This document shows, piece by piece, positions 5,930 to 18,629 of a stretch of DNA of 20,206 nucleotides. The translations under genes and the position numbers were made by a program. The stretch comes from a virus. The number at the start of each line of letters is the position of its first letter. Within the stretch, counting starts at the first letter, position 1. Location: IMG/VR virus record IMGVR_UViG_3300042569_001086, positions 1 to 20,206 of that record; one strand, written 5' to 3'. The notes under the pieces are model-generated. The model ran no database searches, was not told the DNA's origin, and saw only the letters and a program-made list of their open reading frames with translations.

Positions 5930-7677
5930 GCCTACAACCCGGCGACGGATATACCTTCTCAGCCTCGTCCAGTGGGTTCACCCTGGATATCCAAAAGCCC
6001 TGGACGCCAGCTACCGACGGTGGCACGGGGCTGATGCTAGGCATCAGCCTGCCCAAGTTCCCCGACCCGCCTACGCCGCCAGACATCCCTTCGCCTATCG
6101 ACGGCACGGTCCCCCTTCAGTTCCAGTGCAAGGTGTTGGCCATGCCTGTCTCCGGCACGCCGACGCCTGTCGTGCAGGTGGCCATGGGCTCGGTCACCTA
6201 CACGCATTCCTTGATGCCCTACATCAAGACTGGGCCGTTTACAGACCACAGGCAGGCATACATCAACTTCGTTGCGGTCAAGTCCCCTGAGGTCACTCCA
6301 GCGCCCTTGGTTGACGCTACTTCCCCTTGGATGCTGGCTGGCGGTGGCTACGCCCTGACCGGGGAAGGCCGCTGGTACGTCACCCTGTCGAAGTGGGACG
6401 CTGGCAATGGCGCCTTCGAGGGCGGTCTGCTAGATCAGAACCTGCCGTGGGTGTCCTTCGTCAAGGACGGCTCGGACGAGTTCGACGCCCTGTTCGTAGA
6501 CTCTGGCCCTTCGCTCTACCAGAACCAGACCAACATCCAGAAGATGGAAGGATACCAGGAGGTCCTCGCTGAGGGCGAGACCCTGCTGGACTGGGGCCAC
6601 TGCCACACGACCTATTTCAACCCCCGCTTCTTCGGCCATCACGTCCGGGTGCTAGCTATCATCGACTCCGTCGCGGCTGTCCCTTCGGCTGCGGCTATCA
6701 CAGTACTCAAGGAAGGAAGCCCTGAGCTAGGAAACGAAATCCAAGTCCTAACTTTTGTAGGCCAGTACAAGTCCGGCAACGTGACCCTGTCCTACGGATC
6801 GCCTACTCCTGTCGCCGCCACTCTTCCGTTCGACCCATCGACGCAGTCCGCCTTCGATTTGCAACAGTGCCTTAACACCATCCCCGCGTTGACTGGCAAT
6901 GTCCTAGTCCAGAAGTCCGCCCCTGGTGTCTATCAAATCGAGTTTACCAACGTCCTTCGCAAGACGAACGTGCCGACCCTGATCGTCACTTCGACGCTTA
7001 CCTCCTTCACGACCTGGTACAAGGTCAGCCAGATGCACGTGGGTTCGCAGGATATCGTCATCCCCTGCGAGCTCAACGCGACCTTCCTGATGAACAAGGC
7101 TGGAGTCACCGAGGCCGAAGACCCCTACTACATCAACGAGGCCACGACCCCTCCGTGGGACAACGTGGTTAATAACGAGGACGCCATCGCCGCCAACGCG
7201 CTTGGCTTCATTCCCGCTTGGGCTACCCCTGTCATCAACGACACCGTGCCGCGTGCGTTCACGACCGAGTACCTCAACTACGCCGAGGAAGCAGGCTGCA
7301 CCGGCGACGACCCTTCCATGGACCACCCCTTCAAGGTCATCCACGTCGAGACGGATGCCGGACTCAGCGAGTACCGCATCATCTCGGGCACGGTCAACAA
7401 CGAGACCCCTGGCAACATCGCCAGCACGATCACCGTCTCGACTGGGCCCTTCGAGGTCTGGGTCAAGGCGCCTTACGCATCGGGCGTCTACCCTGCCGCG
7501 ACTGGCTTCGACTGGGTCATCGGAACGCCTGTTCCTGCGGACAGCGATACCGACGCCTACATCCGCGTGGCCTCCGTCAACGGCGCTACGGTCACGCAGT
7601 ACGTCACCGGCTCGCTCTGGTCTGACCGCATCAAGATGGGCACGCAGACGGCCCGCTACTACCACGCCCGCATCTGA
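5926..7677 (+). CDS. Large tail-tip protein with a GTFTLTF-like beta-sandwich module
   Basis: A 583-residue, strand-rich protein. The ATG at 5926 overlaps the previous stop (ATGA) and was chosen over the in-frame ATG at 5887. A Pro-rich segment (PDPPTPPDIPSPIDG, about residues 46-60) probably links an N-terminal domain to the rest. Residues about 269-361 follow a pattern I know from repeat domains of large surface and phage proteins: a strand pair, a P-F-D-P/A-Q-L-N helix (FDLQQCLNTIPAL), GNVLVQ, then a strand and a TNVPTL turn. The C-terminal region is again beta-rich. It stands where tail-hub or tail-tip proteins lie, but no gpJ-like hallmark is visible. The gene ends in TGATG, coupled to the next. 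Confidence 0.5.
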   Translation: MSLQPGDGYTFSASSSGFTLDIQKPWTPATDGGTGLMLGISLPKFPDPPTPPDIPSPIDGTVPLQFQCKVLAMPVSGTPTPVVQVAMGSVTYTHSLMPYIKTGPFTDHRQAYINFVAVKSPEVTPAPLVDATSPWMLAGGGYALTGEGRWYVTLSKWDAGNGAFEGGLLDQNLPWVSFVKDGSDEFDALFVDSGPSLYQNQTNIQKMEGYQEVLAEGETLLDWGHCHTTYFNPRFFGHHVRVLAIIDSVAAVPSAAAITVLKEGSPELGNEIQVLTFVGQYKSGNVTLSYGSPTPVAATLPFDPSTQSAFDLQQCLNTIPALTGNVLVQKSAPGVYQIEFTNVLRKTNVPTLIVTSTLTSFTTWYKVSQMHVGSQDIVIPCELNATFLMNKAGVTEAEDPYYINEATTPPWDNVVNNEDAIAANALGFIPAWATPVINDTVPRAFTTEYLNYAEEAGCTGDDPSMDHPFKVIHVETDAGLSEYRIISGTVNNETPGNIASTITVSTGPFEVWVKAPYASGVYPAATGFDWVIGTPVPADSDTDAYIRVASVNGATVTQYVTGSLWSDRIKMGTQTARYYHARI

Positions 7678-8527: not shown

Positions 8528-11338
8528 ATGCCTGACGCGACGATCACCTCGACGGCTTCGACCTTCGGGACCATCTCGGGGGTATTTTCCGCCGACCAGT
8601 CCACCATCTCGGGGACCATCTCGGGCATCGTTGCTGGTACGCTGGACGGTTCGGTGGGTGTTCCTGGGCCTCAAGGGCCGACTGGGCCGCAGGGGCCAAC
8701 GGGGCCTGCGGGTCCTGCCGGAGCCCCCGGTCAGGGCGTCCCTGCTGGCGGCAGCTCAGGTCAGTACCTCCAGAAAGTATCTGGGGTCGATTACGCAACG
8801 GACTGGGTGACGCTTAACCTCTCGGGCTTGGCCACCGAGTCTTGGGTCACCGCTGGTTTCTACCCCCTCTCTGGTAACCCATCGGGCTTCCTGACGGCAG
8901 CCAGCCTATCAGGATACGCTACGGAGTCGTGGGTGACCTCGCAGGGCTACATCACTTCGGCGGCCCTGACTGGGTACGCGCCCCTCGCCAGCCCGGTCTT
9001 CACGGGCGACGCACGCGCCGTAACCCCGGCCTTCGGCGATAACGACACCTCGATTGCCACCACGGCCTTCGTTCAGGCTGGCCTCCTCGGCGGCACGGCC
9101 AACGCCCGCAACCTCGAAGTCTACGTCCGCAATCAGTCGGGGGCTTCTATCCCTGCGGGCTCCATCGTCTACATCAGCGGAGCCACGGGCAACCGTCCCC
9201 TGATCACGTTGTCCCAGGCTAACAACGACGCGAACTCGGCCCAGACAATGGGCTTCACTAAGACGGCCATCGCGAACAACGCCTTCGGCTACGTCATCGT
9301 CCGCGGCGAAGTCGAGAACCTCGACACGTCAGCGCTGACCGAAGGCGCTCAGTTGTACCTGTCCCCCACGGTGGCCGGTGCTTACACGACGACCAAGCCC
9401 ACCGCCCCCCAGCACCTCGTCTACGTCGGCATCGTCATCCGTTCGCACCCGACCCTCGGGACTATCCTCGTCGCTGTCCAGAACGGCTACGAGCTGCACG
9501 AATTGCACGACGTGGCCCTGTCCTCGGAAGCCAACAACGACCTGCTGGCCTACGAGTCCTCGACGGACCTCTGGAAGAACAAGACCTTTTCGGCCCTTGG
9601 CCTGCTGACCTCGGCTGACGCGGCGACGACCTACGCCCCCAAGGCTTCCCCAGCCCTGACTGGCAACGTCACGATCACGTCCAACTCGGCTACGGCTGCG
9701 CTGACTATCACGCAAGATGGTGCGGGCGACATCCTGCGCTTGAATGACGTTGCAGGCGACACGACCTTCACCTTCGTCGATGCCTTGGGCAAGGTTAACA
9801 CTGTTGCCGCGACCACTGCCTCGGCTGGCCTGAACGTCCCGCATGGCACCGCCCCGACGACCCCGGTCAACGGTGACGTCTGGACGACGACCGCTGGCCT
9901 GTTCGCCCGCATCAACGGAGGCACACAGCAGTACCCAGCTCTCAGCACAAATAATACTTTCTCGAACGCCTCCAGCACATTCGGCAGCTCGACGGCGACC
10001 GGCACGATCAACGTGGCTTCGGGTGCGACCATCAGCGCCTCCACCAAGACGGTCAACGTTGGCACAGGTGGGGTCGTCGGTAGCACGACCAACATGACTA
10101 TCGGGCCGGTCCTTGGTGCTTCGACCACCTCGATTGGTGGCACGACCGCCGCGTCTACGCTTAACCTTGCCACGGGTGCGACCCTGACGGCCACGACCAA
10201 AGCCGTCAACATCGGCACGTCTGGCGTCGCTGGCTCGACCACTAACATCACCATCGGTTCGACCACCGGCACTTCGACGACAACGCTCCAGGGCATCACG
10301 AACGGCGTCACGGAAGCGGTCGATACGAACAACACGGAACTGGCGACCACGGCCTTCGTCGTCGGTCAGGCTGGTTCGGCCACGCCTATCGTTAACGGCA
10401 CTGCCGCCGTCGGCACGTCCCTCCGCTACGCTCGCCAGGATCACGTCCACGGCACGGACACGACGCGCGCCGCGGTAGACTCTCAAGCCTTCACCGGCAC
10501 GCCTTCCCTGCCGACCGGCACGACTGGCGTCACGCAGACCGCGGGCAACAACACCACGGCGCTGGCGACTACTGCGTTCGTCACGGCGGCGGTCCCGGCG
10601 TTCGCGACGTTGACCGAGGCCCGTCAGTTCTCGAATACGACCAAGGTATTGTCGCCTAGCCTGGCAATTTGGTCGATGTTCTCAGCGGACATCGTCTACA
10701 TCCAGCGCAGTAACTTCACGGTTACCAACGTTGGCTCTGTCCAATACACAAACCTTGGCACAATCACGACAGAGACACGACTTGCATCGGCAGCCGCCAG
10801 CTCTTCCCGTGCCCGGACTTTTGGCCCAAGTCAGGTAGACCAGACCCAGTCGATGACTGTCAGGGCTAACCCTACATCGCACCTTAATTTCAGTCGGCCT
10901 ACTTATCTTGGCGGGCGTTCTCACACATTCAGTATCACCGATCCCGTGCTGACGATGGCTTTCTACTACGGCAAAGCCGAAGCGGATGGCGTCGGTAATT
11001 TGACTCGTCGAGGCATGGGCTGGAAAGTAACCGGAGGAACGGGAAGCCGATTCCTGACTCTTGAAGTTCACAACGGAACGACACTCACAAGCGTAACATC
11101 CTCTTATGCCGTTGTAGGAGGTACTGCTTTTGACTGGGACATTATTAGCGACGGAGCAGGGAACGTAACCCTTTACGTCAATGGATCTTCAGTTGCCACA
11201 AGTTCCGCCGGCCCTACCGGACTGGTCAACTTGACTCCTGTCCTCTGGCAGGAAGAATACAGCACCAGCGGCGTGCCTGCCATCACCTTCCACACCGCGT
11301 ACCATAGCCGAGGACGCATGGCCGTCATCAACTACTAA
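8528..11338 (+). CDS. Tail fibre with collagen-like stretch and C-terminal lectin-like domain
   Basis: A 936-residue fibre, probably trimeric and used for host recognition. Residues 1-43 form a Ser/Thr/Gly-rich attachment region. Residues 44-70 are nine collagen-like G-X-Y triplets, known to nucleate trimers in phage fibres. Fibre-type repeats (ATESWVT, GYAPLASPVFTG) follow. Residues about 196-333 resemble a module frequent in environmental phage fibres (PAGSIVYISGATG to GYELHELHDV). ATTAFV-type repeats occur near residues 180, 610 and 685, and a 51-residue tandem repeat starts at residue 494. From about residue 715 a glycan-binding-type beta-sandwich appears (DWDIISDGAGNVTLYVNG), with GC falling from about 70% to about 52%. 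It ends in TAATG, coupled to the next gene. Confidence 0.85.
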   Translation: MPDATITSTASTFGTISGVFSADQSTISGTISGIVAGTLDGSVGVPGPQGPTGPQGPTGPAGPAGAPGQGVPAGGSSGQYLQKVSGVDYATDWVTLNLSGLATESWVTAGFYPLSGNPSGFLTAASLSGYATESWVTSQGYITSAALTGYAPLASPVFTGDARAVTPAFGDNDTSIATTAFVQAGLLGGTANARNLEVYVRNQSGASIPAGSIVYISGATGNRPLITLSQANNDANSAQTMGFTKTAIANNAFGYVIVRGEVENLDTSALTEGAQLYLSPTVAGAYTTTKPTAPQHLVYVGIVIRSHPTLGTILVAVQNGYELHELHDVALSSEANNDLLAYESSTDLWKNKTFSALGLLTSADAATTYAPKASPALTGNVTITSNSATAALTITQDGAGDILRLNDVAGDTTFTFVDALGKVNTVAATTASAGLNVPHGTAPTTPVNGDVWTTTAGLFARINGGTQQYPALSTNNTFSNASSTFGSSTATGTINVASGATISASTKTVNVGTGGVVGSTTNMTIGPVLGASTTSIGGTTAASTLNLATGATLTATTKAVNIGTSGVAGSTTNITIGSTTGTSTTTLQGITNGVTEAVDTNNTELATTAFVVGQAGSATPIVNGTAAVGTSLRYARQDHVHGTDTTRAAVDSQAFTGTPSLPTGTTGVTQTAGNNTTALATTAFVTAAVPAFATLTEARQFSNTTKVLSPSLAIWSMFSADIVYIQRSNFTVTNVGSVQYTNLGTITTETRLASAAASSSRARTFGPSQVDQTQSMTVRANPTSHLNFSRPTYLGGRSHTFSITDPVLTMAFYYGKAEADGVGNLTRRGMGWKVTGGTGSRFLTLEVHNGTTLTSVTSSYAVVGGTAFDWDIISDGAGNVTLYVNGSSVATSSAGPTGLVNLTPVLWQEEYSTSGVPAITFHTAYHSRGRMAVINY
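10007..10294 (+). repeat. Imperfect 153-bp tandem repeat inside the fibre gene
   Basis: Two copies, in frame, of a 51-codon unit. The first starts at residue 494 (INVASGATISASTKTVNVGT) and the second at residue 545 (LNLATGATLTATTKAVNIGT), both continuing through a G-STTN-TIG segment. The second copy is slightly shortened before the LQG turn. The repeat is also visible in DNA as shared blocks such as GGGTGCGACC and GTCAAC. Such repeats form the shaft of fibres and can vary in number by recombination. Confidence 0.75.
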
Positions 11339-11536: not shown

Positions 11537-11668
11537 ATGATTACCCACCTCCTCGCTCTCCTAGTCGGCTTCGTCGCCGGAGCCCTCGTCATGCGCAAGC
11601 ACAAGGCCAAGGCCGACACGCTCGAAGCCAAAGGCCGTCAGGCCCTCGACGCCCTCAAAGGCAAGTAA
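11537..11668 (+). CDS. Small single-pass membrane protein
   Basis: A 43-residue protein. ATG at 11537, four bases after the previous stop. An N-terminal hydrophobic helix (about residues 4-18, HLLALLVGFVAGALV) is followed by a strongly basic helix (MRKHKAKADTLEAKGRQ). The arrangement suggests an N-out or N-in single membrane anchor with a cytoplasmic basic tail. It opens a run of membrane-protein genes that includes the holin, so a lysis-accessory role is possible, but nothing in the sequence proves it. Confidence 0.6.
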   Translation: MITHLLALLVGFVAGALVMRKHKAKADTLEAKGRQALDALKGK

Positions 11669-11671
11669 GCC

Positions 11672-12397
11672 GTGCGCCTGCTCCTGGTCATCGCCGTCCT
11701 GGCCCTGACCGGGTGCAGTCTGTTCCGCAAGGGAGACGCGGAGCCCCTGCCCGTCCAGCCTCCCGGCCCGACCAAGCCTGACGTCGTCGCCACGCTCGGC
11801 AAAGACCTCGACAAGACGGATCACCGCGTAGCCTCGGCCCTCGTGGCAATCGAGCGCAACGCCGACAAGCCCAAGGTCGTCGTCGCGGAGTCCCGTCTGG
11901 CCCAGTCGTATCTCCCCGCCCCGCCCGAGTCTGACGTGGCCTTCGCCATGGCCCGGGCGACCAAGGGCGACCCTGTAGACTACGCGAAGCAGATGGCCTT
12001 TGGTCGTCAACTCGCCACCGCCGTGACCAAGGCATGGGAGAAACTCGAAACCCAGCAGGCCGAAGCCCTCCGCGTCTCGCAGCTGAAGGACGCCCGCATC
12101 GTCGAACTGACCAAGGAGGTCGAGCGCGTCCGCAAGGAAGCGAGCCGGAACATCTGGACGCTGGCAGGCGCTGGCCTTGCCGTCCTCGGCGCAGTCACGA
12201 CTGCGTTCGCCGGTCCGCGCATCGGCCTACCTTTGATGGCCTGCGGCGCGGCGATGGGGGCTTTTCCGTTCGTTGTCGAGTCGCCCCACTGGGACCTGAT
12301 CGTGACCATCACCCTCGGGCTCGGCGCTTGCCTGCTCATCTGGGTCGCTTGGGATTACGCCAGGGACAGAGTCAACGCCAAGCCTCCGCAGGAATGA
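11672..12397 (+). CDS. Lipoprotein with coiled coil and C-terminal membrane helices; spanin-like candidate
   Basis: A 241-residue protein starting with GTG, three bases after the previous stop. Residues 1-15 are a lipoprotein signal: hydrophobic LLLVIAVLAL then the lipobox LTGC, Cys15 being the acylated residue. Ser16 follows, which favours outer-membrane sorting. After a Pro-rich linker there is a coiled coil (about 115-158, including LETQQAEALRVSQLKDARIV), and the C-terminus holds about three hydrophobic segments (161-181, 184-202, 207-227). A lipid anchor at one end and membrane helices at the other is the plan of a unimolecular spanin, which links the two membranes and fuses them at lysis; known ones have a single C-terminal helix. 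The stop overlaps the holin start (ATGA). Function is inferred. Confidence 0.6.
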   Translation: MRLLLVIAVLALTGCSLFRKGDAEPLPVQPPGPTKPDVVATLGKDLDKTDHRVASALVAIERNADKPKVVVAESRLAQSYLPAPPESDVAFAMARATKGDPVDYAKQMAFGRQLATAVTKAWEKLETQQAEALRVSQLKDARIVELTKEVERVRKEASRNIWTLAGAGLAVLGAVTTAFAGPRIGLPLMACGAAMGAFPFVVESPHWDLIVTITLGLGACLLIWVAWDYARDRVNAKPPQE

Positions 12398-12774
12398 GCC
12401 CTCCTCCTCCCCCCATCGACCCCGAGTCCATCCCGAAGGAACTGAAGGATGGCGTTGTGGCCGGCACGATTGGAGCCATGAGCATGGCCGCCAGACTTTT
12501 GCTCAGCACGGAGAAGCACACCTGGTCGTGGGTTGCTCGCCGCGTATGCGCCGCTAGTTTGACCGCCGCAATCGCAGGCTACGCCCTGACCGATTACATC
12601 TCGAGCCCGGGCCTACGGATGGGAGCCATAGGGGCCCTTTCTTATTCCAGTCCAGAGGCTTTAGACGCGCTACTACGCTGGGTCAAAGCCCGGGCAGAGC
12701 GTGAGGTCGAGAAGGTTTCCAAGCCAGCCAAGTCCAAGCCCAATGCCAAAGCCAAGCGAACCAAGCGCAAGTGA
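12394..12774 (+). CDS. Holin, LydA / class III type
   Basis: A 126-residue protein with the pattern of the LydA-like phage holin group: a Pro-rich N-terminus, helix 1 (about residues 19-37, with MSMAARLLL), a charged turn with TWSWVARRV, helix 2 (50-68), helix 3 (73-86, MGAIGALSYSSPEALDALLR), and a Lys-rich tail. Holins oligomerise in the inner membrane and open holes that start lysis; the charged tail is a standard feature. The ATG overlaps the stop of the spanin-like gene (ATGA). The endolysin-like gene is not adjacent but lies 5.4 kb away on the other strand. The next membrane gene starts inside the 3' end of this one. Confidence 0.75.
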   Translation: MSPPPPPIDPESIPKELKDGVVAGTIGAMSMAARLLLSTEKHTWSWVARRVCAASLTAAIAGYALTDYISSPGLRMGAIGALSYSSPEALDALLRWVKARAEREVEKVSKPAKSKPNAKAKRTKRK

Positions 12775-13072
12775 GGGCAACCTCCTGCTGGCCGTCTGCC
12801 TGCTGGTGACCTTTGCGGGCATGGCCTCGGTGACCACGGCTTACACGGCTGGGTACGTGATTGACCAGGTGCAGTCAACTGATGCGCTTGTCATGTTGGT
12901 CGTTGATGGGGGCAAGCTGCGGTCCGACTCTGCCGACCTTGAGCGGAATATGTCCTCGGCCACCCTAGCCCTGCAGTCCGTCCGCGAACTAGGGCTGGCC
13001 CTGTCGTTTGGATGCCTTGCCGTGGCCGTGGCGGTGGGTATCAGGCTCTGGCGGGGTAGACGGCAGGGTTGA
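12743..13072 (+). CDS. Second small membrane protein overlapping the holin
   Basis: A 109-residue protein (ATG 12743; an in-frame ATG at 12701 would add 14 residues but lengthen the overlap). It has two membrane helices (about residues 13-37 and 83-102) joined by a ~45-residue soluble loop containing a short helix (SADLERNMSSATLALQSV), and ends RLWRGRRQG. The topology puts the loop on one side and both basic ends on the other. It overlaps the holin gene by 32 bases in another frame, so this stretch encodes two proteins. An antiholin, pinholin or accessory lysis role is plausible from context, but no family motif is visible. Confidence 0.6.
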   Translation: MPKPSEPSASEGNLLLAVCLLVTFAGMASVTTAYTAGYVIDQVQSTDALVMLVVDGGKLRSDSADLERNMSSATLALQSVRELGLALSFGCLAVAVAVGIRLWRGRRQG

Positions 13073-15961: not shown

Positions 15962-16216
15962 ATGGGAAAGAAACCCAAGGTCCCGAAGGTCATCGTCCGA
16001 CCCCTGCCCGGGGACATCGCAGGGCTGGCCTGCAAGAAGGACAACACCATCGAGCTCGACCCGAACATCATCACGGAGCGCGAACGCCTGCGCGTGACCG
16101 TGCACGAGGCCCTCCACCTCGGCGACTGGAAAGCCCCGGAGAAGAAGGTGGACCGCATCTCGCGCAAGATCGCGGACGTGCTCTGGTCCCAAGGCTACCG
16201 CAGAACTTCCCTATGA
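15962..16216 (+). CDS. Mini HExxH metalloprotein
   Basis: An 84-residue protein. The ATG at 15962 was chosen because upstream in-frame codons run through the terminator. It contains HEALH (48-52), the HExxH zinc motif, in a helix; DWKAPEKKVDRISRKI follows with Glu60/Asp64 as possible third ligands, and WSQGYR closes the protein. The N-terminal half is a basic strand region. Small proteins of this plan (HEALH, acidic helix, L-W-x-x-G-Y-R end) occur in phages and are usually unnamed. The zinc motif suggests a peptidase-like or structural metal protein. The stop overlaps the kinase start (ATGA), indicating coupled expression. Activity is not shown by the sequence alone. Confidence 0.65.
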   Translation: MGKKPKVPKVIVRPLPGDIAGLACKKDNTIELDPNIITERERLRVTVHEALHLGDWKAPEKKVDRISRKIADVLWSQGYRRTSL

Positions 16217-18155: not shown

Positions 18156-18629
18156 CTAACGTGCGACGGCAGGGCGTTTTGGCAAGCCCCAAGCCAGCGT
18201 GTTCACCTGTCGCGCCTTGTCGAACTTGACGCGGGGGACATACGCCCAGCTGAAACCGTAGCGCTCGTAGCCCGACCAGCCGAGATTCCAAGCCAGCCAG
18301 ATTTCCCCGGGGTAAGGCTGTCGCCCGATCTGCCCCGCGAGCCTGACCTTCAGGACCGTCAGCCAGGTGCGAGCGTAGTCGCGGGCTCTGATTGGGGCCT
18401 TGGCGTCAGAGTAAGGGTAGACGGCCAGCCCCGCCTTGCGCCGGATAGCCGAGCAGTCGGACCACGCTGAGGAGTGCCACTGTAGGCATCCGATAGCCTT
18501 CCCTGCGTCCCCATCGGGGGTCTTAGACCCACGGCCAGAGGACTCGACCTGCTCGACGGCCTGCAGGGTCTGCTCTGGAATGGCCTCAGAGGTCAGCAGG
18601 GCGGCGGAGAGGGCTAGGACTAGGGTCAT
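18156..18629 (-). CDS. SLT-type lytic transglycosylase, probable endolysin
   Basis: A 157-residue enzyme cutting the glycan strand of peptidoglycan. Residues 1-15 are a hydrophobic signal-like segment (LVLALSAALL) with a plausible SEA cleavage site, so export by the Sec system is likely. The lytic-transglycosylase motifs appear in order: ES (Glu29-Ser30) as catalytic Glu, GCLQ (47-50) in place of GLMQ, and AWNLG (113-117) in place of AYNAG. The size fits a single catalytic domain. It lies on the opposite strand from the holin and spanin-like genes and ends the leftward operon. The start overlaps the upstream stop as ATGA. A virion-associated or cell-wall entry role cannot be excluded. Confidence 0.75.
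   Translation of the reverse strand: MTLVLALSAALLTSEAIPEQTLQAVEQVESSGRGSKTPDGDAGKAIGCLQWHSSAWSDCSAIRRKAGLAVYPYSDAKAPIRARDYARTWLTVLKVRLAGQIGRQPYPGEIWLAWNLGWSGYERYGFSWAYVPRVKFDKARQVNTLAWGLPKRPAVAR

Follow-up and report, generated by a model that had tools for sequence, protein, structure and literature searches.

The gene at positions 11672-12397 (+) of the window, i.e. the whole 20,206-nucleotide stretch of the virus record IMGVR_UViG_3300042569_001086 that we analysed, probably encodes a unimolecular spanin-like lysis protein whose inner-membrane anchor would be polytopic, made of three helices. The disruption of the outer membrane is a poorly understood step in phage lysis. The initial annotation had left the choice between a new spanin architecture and a lipoprotein with another membrane role. 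The first part of this alternative is now favoured by the sequence context and the second appears less probable, because the gene belongs to a lysis cassette shared by different kinds of phage, no second convincing lipoprotein turned up in the window or in five long relatives, and the periplasmic part has no Cys.

The ORF starts with GTG and its translation has 241 aa. At the N terminus a single Arg and a brief hydrophobic run come before the lipobox noticed initially, LTGC at Cys15, which is followed by Ser (signal peptide 11672-11716, Cys codon 11714-11716). Among 118 distinct relatives parsed, the N terminus is complete in 113 and all 113 have a lipobox, as called by pattern match: LTGC (65), LAGC (41), TTGC (3), MAGC (2), TAGC (1) and LVGC (1). 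Relatives lacking it, which would have spoken against the annotation, are thus absent from the readable set. Of the five uncounted relatives, three lose the lipobox to a contig end; in the other two, one truncated within its signal peptide and one parsed wrongly, LTGC is still visible. With T or M at -3, six of the 113 fall outside the strict [LVI][ASTVI][GAS]C pattern, as PMC6139136 words it. Judged from the sequence, the N-terminal lipoprotein signal that characterizes u-spanins is present in the family. Position +2 is S in 62 sequences, K in 45, T in 3 and A in 3, never Asp. From the lipobox to the first membrane segment no Cys occurs in any of the 113 sequences, the boundary being approximate in three that have no exact landmark.

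The window protein is a member of a large environmental phage family, not the quirk of one genome. Compared with viral contigs, it found a relative in 198 stretches, of which the best 80 (66-92% identity) were kept; scans with two diverged members returned 89 and 201 stretches, the best 80 of each being kept. Once exact duplicates were removed, 130 distinct loci were examined out of about 200 relatives found; these are the best-scoring matches from three overlapping scans, neither a random nor an independent sample. At E<=0.1, tblastn detected no relative of the lipoprotein among 50,697 named phage records, so that no tested spanin, and none of the 13 described u-spanin families, is related to it by sequence at this threshold. 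The named phages gave no match either for a holin relative, for the 43-aa protein encoded upstream or for the major capsid candidate of the window. In species genomes, a two-peptide-pattern scan matched 32 stretches, zero of which was confirmed as a relative, and a second scan, with the integrase lying beside the cassette in one locus (L092) as query, revealed no confirmed bacterial or prophage relative. The Pfam and PHROG matches of the window protein itself are at chance level, the Pfam noise being judged against other families in the same search. Solved structures gave no significant match by sequence (best E 0.74) or by fold (best E 0.67). The full-length fold is shared with four uncultured Caudovirales proteins to which no function is given, A0A6J5MZD0, A0A6J5LR36, A0A6J5P2W9 and A0A6J5MD62 (230-245 aa, E 6e-18 to 1e-4); the likeness comes from fold matching, at only 18-51% identity.

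About three C-terminal membrane segments had been announced, and the family bears this out. With Kyte-Doolittle hydropathy over 19-residue windows, applied to 113 sequences including that of the window, three segments are found in 111 and two in 2 at threshold 1.3, whereas at threshold 1.0 the count is three for 107 sequences and four for 6, and at the strict threshold 1.6 it is three for only 28, two for 74 and one for 11. Those of the window protein are at residues 161-179 (12152-12208, hydropathy 1.68), 184-202 (12221-12277, 1.85) and 209-227 (12296-12352, 2.26), all encoded on the plus strand; the second contains a GxxxG-type motif, found within this segment in 100 of the 109 sequences checked. 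Three membrane helices are thus well supported, yet they are not strongly hydrophobic, and the lack of membrane helices that could have contradicted the annotation was not seen. Among the 107 sequences that show precisely three segments at threshold 1.0, loop 1 has on average 1.0 K/R and 0 D/E, and loop 2 0 K/R and 1.85 D/E. These charges fit a predicted N-out/C-in topology; the tail after the last segment is of mixed charge and gives no help.

Two AlphaFold2 models, one of the window protein (47 sequences, mean pLDDT 67, pTM 0.31) and one of a more distant relative, 58% identical to it (35 sequences, mean pLDDT 72, pTM 0.33), agree on short helices followed by a helix of ~75 residues that enters the membrane and by a further two membrane helices (about 104-180, 182-202 and 207-234). 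Both models are of moderate confidence, and we trust them for the helices, not for the overall arrangement. The lipobox is followed by the Pro-rich linker of the initial annotation (residues about 16-35, 11717-11776), modelled with low confidence at pLDDT <50, and then by a periplasmic region of four short predicted helices (residues 36-97, 11777-11962), where conservation within the protein is highest, with an average of 1.00 in block 71-80. The coiled coil proposed initially would correspond to the long predicted helix (residues 104-160, 11981-12151): its conservation is periodic near 3.5 residues, only 1 of 2000 shuffles being as strong, and in the best heptad register, picked after the data were seen, 15 of the 17 a/d positions hardly vary, versus 18 of the 40 others. 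The hydropathy of the same helix shows no significant periodicity (274 of 2000 shuffles as strong). Adding 57 helical residues, about 50 residues in short helices and about 20 of linker, we estimate that the periplasmic part would reach near 20 nm if stretched out completely, which would suffice to cross a periplasm of usual width. Mean pairwise identity is 83% in the periplasmic part versus 63% in the membrane part. The contrast is greater between the window protein and that of locus L005 (N-terminal part 96% identical, membrane part 53%), pointing to a possible recombination where the two domains meet.

The gene lies in a cassette ordered as follows: a one-TM protein, the lipoprotein, usually an HExxH peptidase, a holin-III-like holin and a two-TM protein, with an SLT-type endolysin nearby. 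Downstream neighbours were counted on the 105 loci with at least 1.5 kb downstream, and the upstream one on the 119 loci with enough upstream sequence. A holin relative lies 3' of the lipoprotein gene in all 105; in the window the two genes overlap by the ATGA at 12394-12397, stop of the one and start of the other (holin 12394-12774, +). The direct precedence of a holin gene, initially reported, holds in the window, and a holin lies downstream in every usable locus, which also answers the search for relatives next to holins that the annotation had proposed. The holin call itself is weak for the window gene, which scores 22.6 bits against PF16083 for a cut-off of 28.4, and firmer in a relative, whose holin matches the phrog_6384 holin at E=4.6e-8. 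On the other side, the gene of a 43-aa protein with one hydrophobic segment (11537-11668, +; phrog_3879, unknown function, E=5e-9) is found in 108 of 119 loci; in the window 3 bases separate its stop from the lipoprotein start. It is possibly a small lysis regulator. The two-TM protein, of unknown function (12743-13072, +), follows the holin in 93 of 105 loci and was not found by the same search in 12; its gene overlaps the 3' end of the holin gene out of frame. A scan for promoters and terminators gave nothing useful.

In 99 of 105 loci the small peptidase is encoded directly after the lipoprotein gene, ahead of the holin; in the window (15962-16216, +) and a few close relatives it is found about 4 kb downstream instead. 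HExxH is kept in the 124 copies extracted. These proteins (also L063:6719-6985 and L092:6716-6994), mostly of 84-105 aa, have weak similarity to SprT/M78 and to PHROG metallo-proteases. As for the endolysin, of the 68 loci whose downstream sequence reaches 5 kb or more, 48 have an SLT-like protein in the flank retrieved, encoded on the same strand in 45 and on the opposite one in 3. A relative of the SLT-type endolysin occurs in 15 of 16 long records that we chose, and 7 of the same 16 score above the cut-off of the Pfam SLT model itself. The L063 protein scores 28.1 for this cut-off of 21.3. The window candidate, related to these proteins, is encoded on the opposite strand (18156-18629, -). 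Both it and the L063 protein (9296-9742) begin with what looks like a signal peptide, so that they would be secreted without need of a holin pore. The window also has long ORFs antisense to tail genes—6904-7665 (-), 9329-10486 (-) and others—which are probably a by-product of the high G+C.

A rival to the spanin reading is a holin-like function. The protein may be an inner-membrane lipoprotein that regulates the holin, or a second holin-like protein, its lipid and helices both residing in the inner membrane and its long helix serving in holin oligomerisation or timing. Besides the start/stop overlap seen in the window, Phage_holin_3_6 (PF07332, holin superfamily III) is matched by 29 of 47 members at E<=1, over the coiled-coil and membrane part where ranges are given, i.e. 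the long helix and the membrane segments; from this weak similarity the membrane part may have a holin-like role. However, the best score (27.4 bits, L069) stays under the curated cut-off of 28.4, the lipobox and the conserved periplasmic domain are outside the match, and unrelated families are matched too—DUF1192 by 23 of 47 members, MCU by 22 and Pico_P2B by 17—though with weaker best E-values. The better conservation of the periplasmic part over the membrane part points the other way as well, and a comparison with the adjoining holin family gives an hhalign probability of 0.1, so that homology of the C-terminal part with this holin is not supported; nor is homology with the two-TM protein (probability 10). 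TIGR04211 (NCBIfam), matched by 35 of 47 members (best E 4.4e-4), was set aside as coiled-coil-plus-anchor noise, the window protein reaching 13.7 bits for a cut-off of 65. The absence of Asp at +2 argues against retention in the inner membrane; the +2 sorting rule derives from enterobacteria and may not be that of the host of this phage. Finally, a purely holin-like role would leave these phages without apparent spanin. Altogether we consider this explanation rather unlikely.

Both conserved neighbours, the two-TM and the 43-aa protein, look like membrane proteins, and one of them might be the inner-membrane partner in a two-component spanin whose outer-membrane half would be the lipoprotein. 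We find this very improbable: o-spanins do not possess a membrane anchor such as the lipoprotein has, the 43-aa protein is not long enough to span, and the two-TM protein offers only a short stretch between its segments, in addition to being missed in the 12 loci mentioned above.

The cassette is common to records with differing head proteins (phrog_9953, phrog_1328, phrog_21 portal and tape measure) and is present in phages of at least three different head types. It thus behaves as a mobile lysis module, and its sharing across head types is what is expected for a lysis module, not for a virion part. In L092 a phage integrase (PF00589, 7638-8702, -) lies directly downstream of it, which would be consistent with a temperate lifestyle for one carrier or more. 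Phage lipoproteins with roles in superinfection exclusion or envelope protection exist, and one of them could travel by chance with lysis genes in a cassette that moves among phage types. We give hardly any credit to this idea, against which stand the unchanging position next to the holin at every usable locus, the wall-spanning helical design with its membrane anchor, and the lack of another spanin candidate in the window and five long records. In the window, the scan for the lipobox pattern picked out this ORF alone; in the five long records it added none that convinced, the remaining matches, sorted by eye, being short ORFs, cytoplasmic-looking stretches or holin parts.

The spanin reading is best appreciated by comparison with the known systems. 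As presented in PMC6139136, u-spanins (T1 gp11 type) have, like the window protein, an N-terminal lipobox, a periplasmic domain free of Cys (58 of 58 published u-spanins), a C-terminal membrane anchor—here detected by hydropathy and in both models—and a place among lysis genes with no separate i- or o-spanin found. Two features differ. Known u-spanins are described with one TMD (PMC6139136; PMC7830690, whose table lists 1 TMD), whereas the window protein has about three C-terminal helices; and their periplasmic domains are mainly beta, whereas ours is predicted to be helical and coiled-coil-like, both models being all-helical. No multi-TMD u-spanin was found in the excerpts of the open-licence PMC literature, including PMC6139136, PMC7830690, PMC12596118 and PMC8776804. 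With the Rz/Rz1 two-component spanins, as PMC6139136 outlines them, the window protein shares a Pro-rich stretch in the lipoprotein and a coiled-coil-type periplasmic helix, but it carries both functions on one chain, without periplasmic Cys and in the reversed order: lipid first, helix then membrane. Two PHROG 'Rz-like spanin' families are weakly matched, phrog_3198 (17 of 47 members, best E=2.8e-4) and phrog_812 (17 of 47, best 8.5e-4), over the signal peptide and linker where ranges are given for the window protein; this lends weak support to the spanin reading. As no named phage matches and neither the single TMD nor the beta-rich domain is found, we place the protein outside the described u-spanin families, as a new spanin-like variant.

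We infer a host with an outer membrane from the lipoprotein and from the weak capsid, portal and terminase similarity of the window phage to Verrucomicrobia phage P8625, in which no lipobox ORF was found. In such a host, the N terminus would be exported and receive its lipid at Cys15 before being sorted to the outer membrane. The periplasm would be crossed by the Pro-rich linker, the small helical domain and the long helix with its coiled-coil-like character, this last helix continuing into the inner membrane before two further helices, N-out/C-in. As long as the wall is intact the protein would be held in its mesh; once the holin and the SLT-type endolysin act, the tethers would cluster, and the clustered helical rods may pull or zip both membranes together, thereby disrupting the outer one. 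A bolder version, to which we concede a slim chance, makes the protein a spanin-holin chimera: while the lipidated coiled-coil arm tethers the outer membrane, the three-helix, holin-III-like bundle would also oligomerise and open or depolarise the inner membrane. Inner-membrane breach and outer-membrane fusion would then be coupled in one molecule.

In the figures that PMC6139136 (Kongari et al.) reports, 91 of 677 genomes have no spanin; the same work relied on the rarity of lipoproteins in phages for finding spanins, and its criteria, as presented there, left other membrane topologies unconsidered. If a polytopic spanin-like protein is indeed what we describe, the known spanin topologies would be extended by a large, uniform, multi-helix and all-helical family of uncultured phages. 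It would also mean that a one-piece spanin design can employ a coiled-coil arm, and it would provide an annotation rule for environmental viromes, where such genes remain unnamed.
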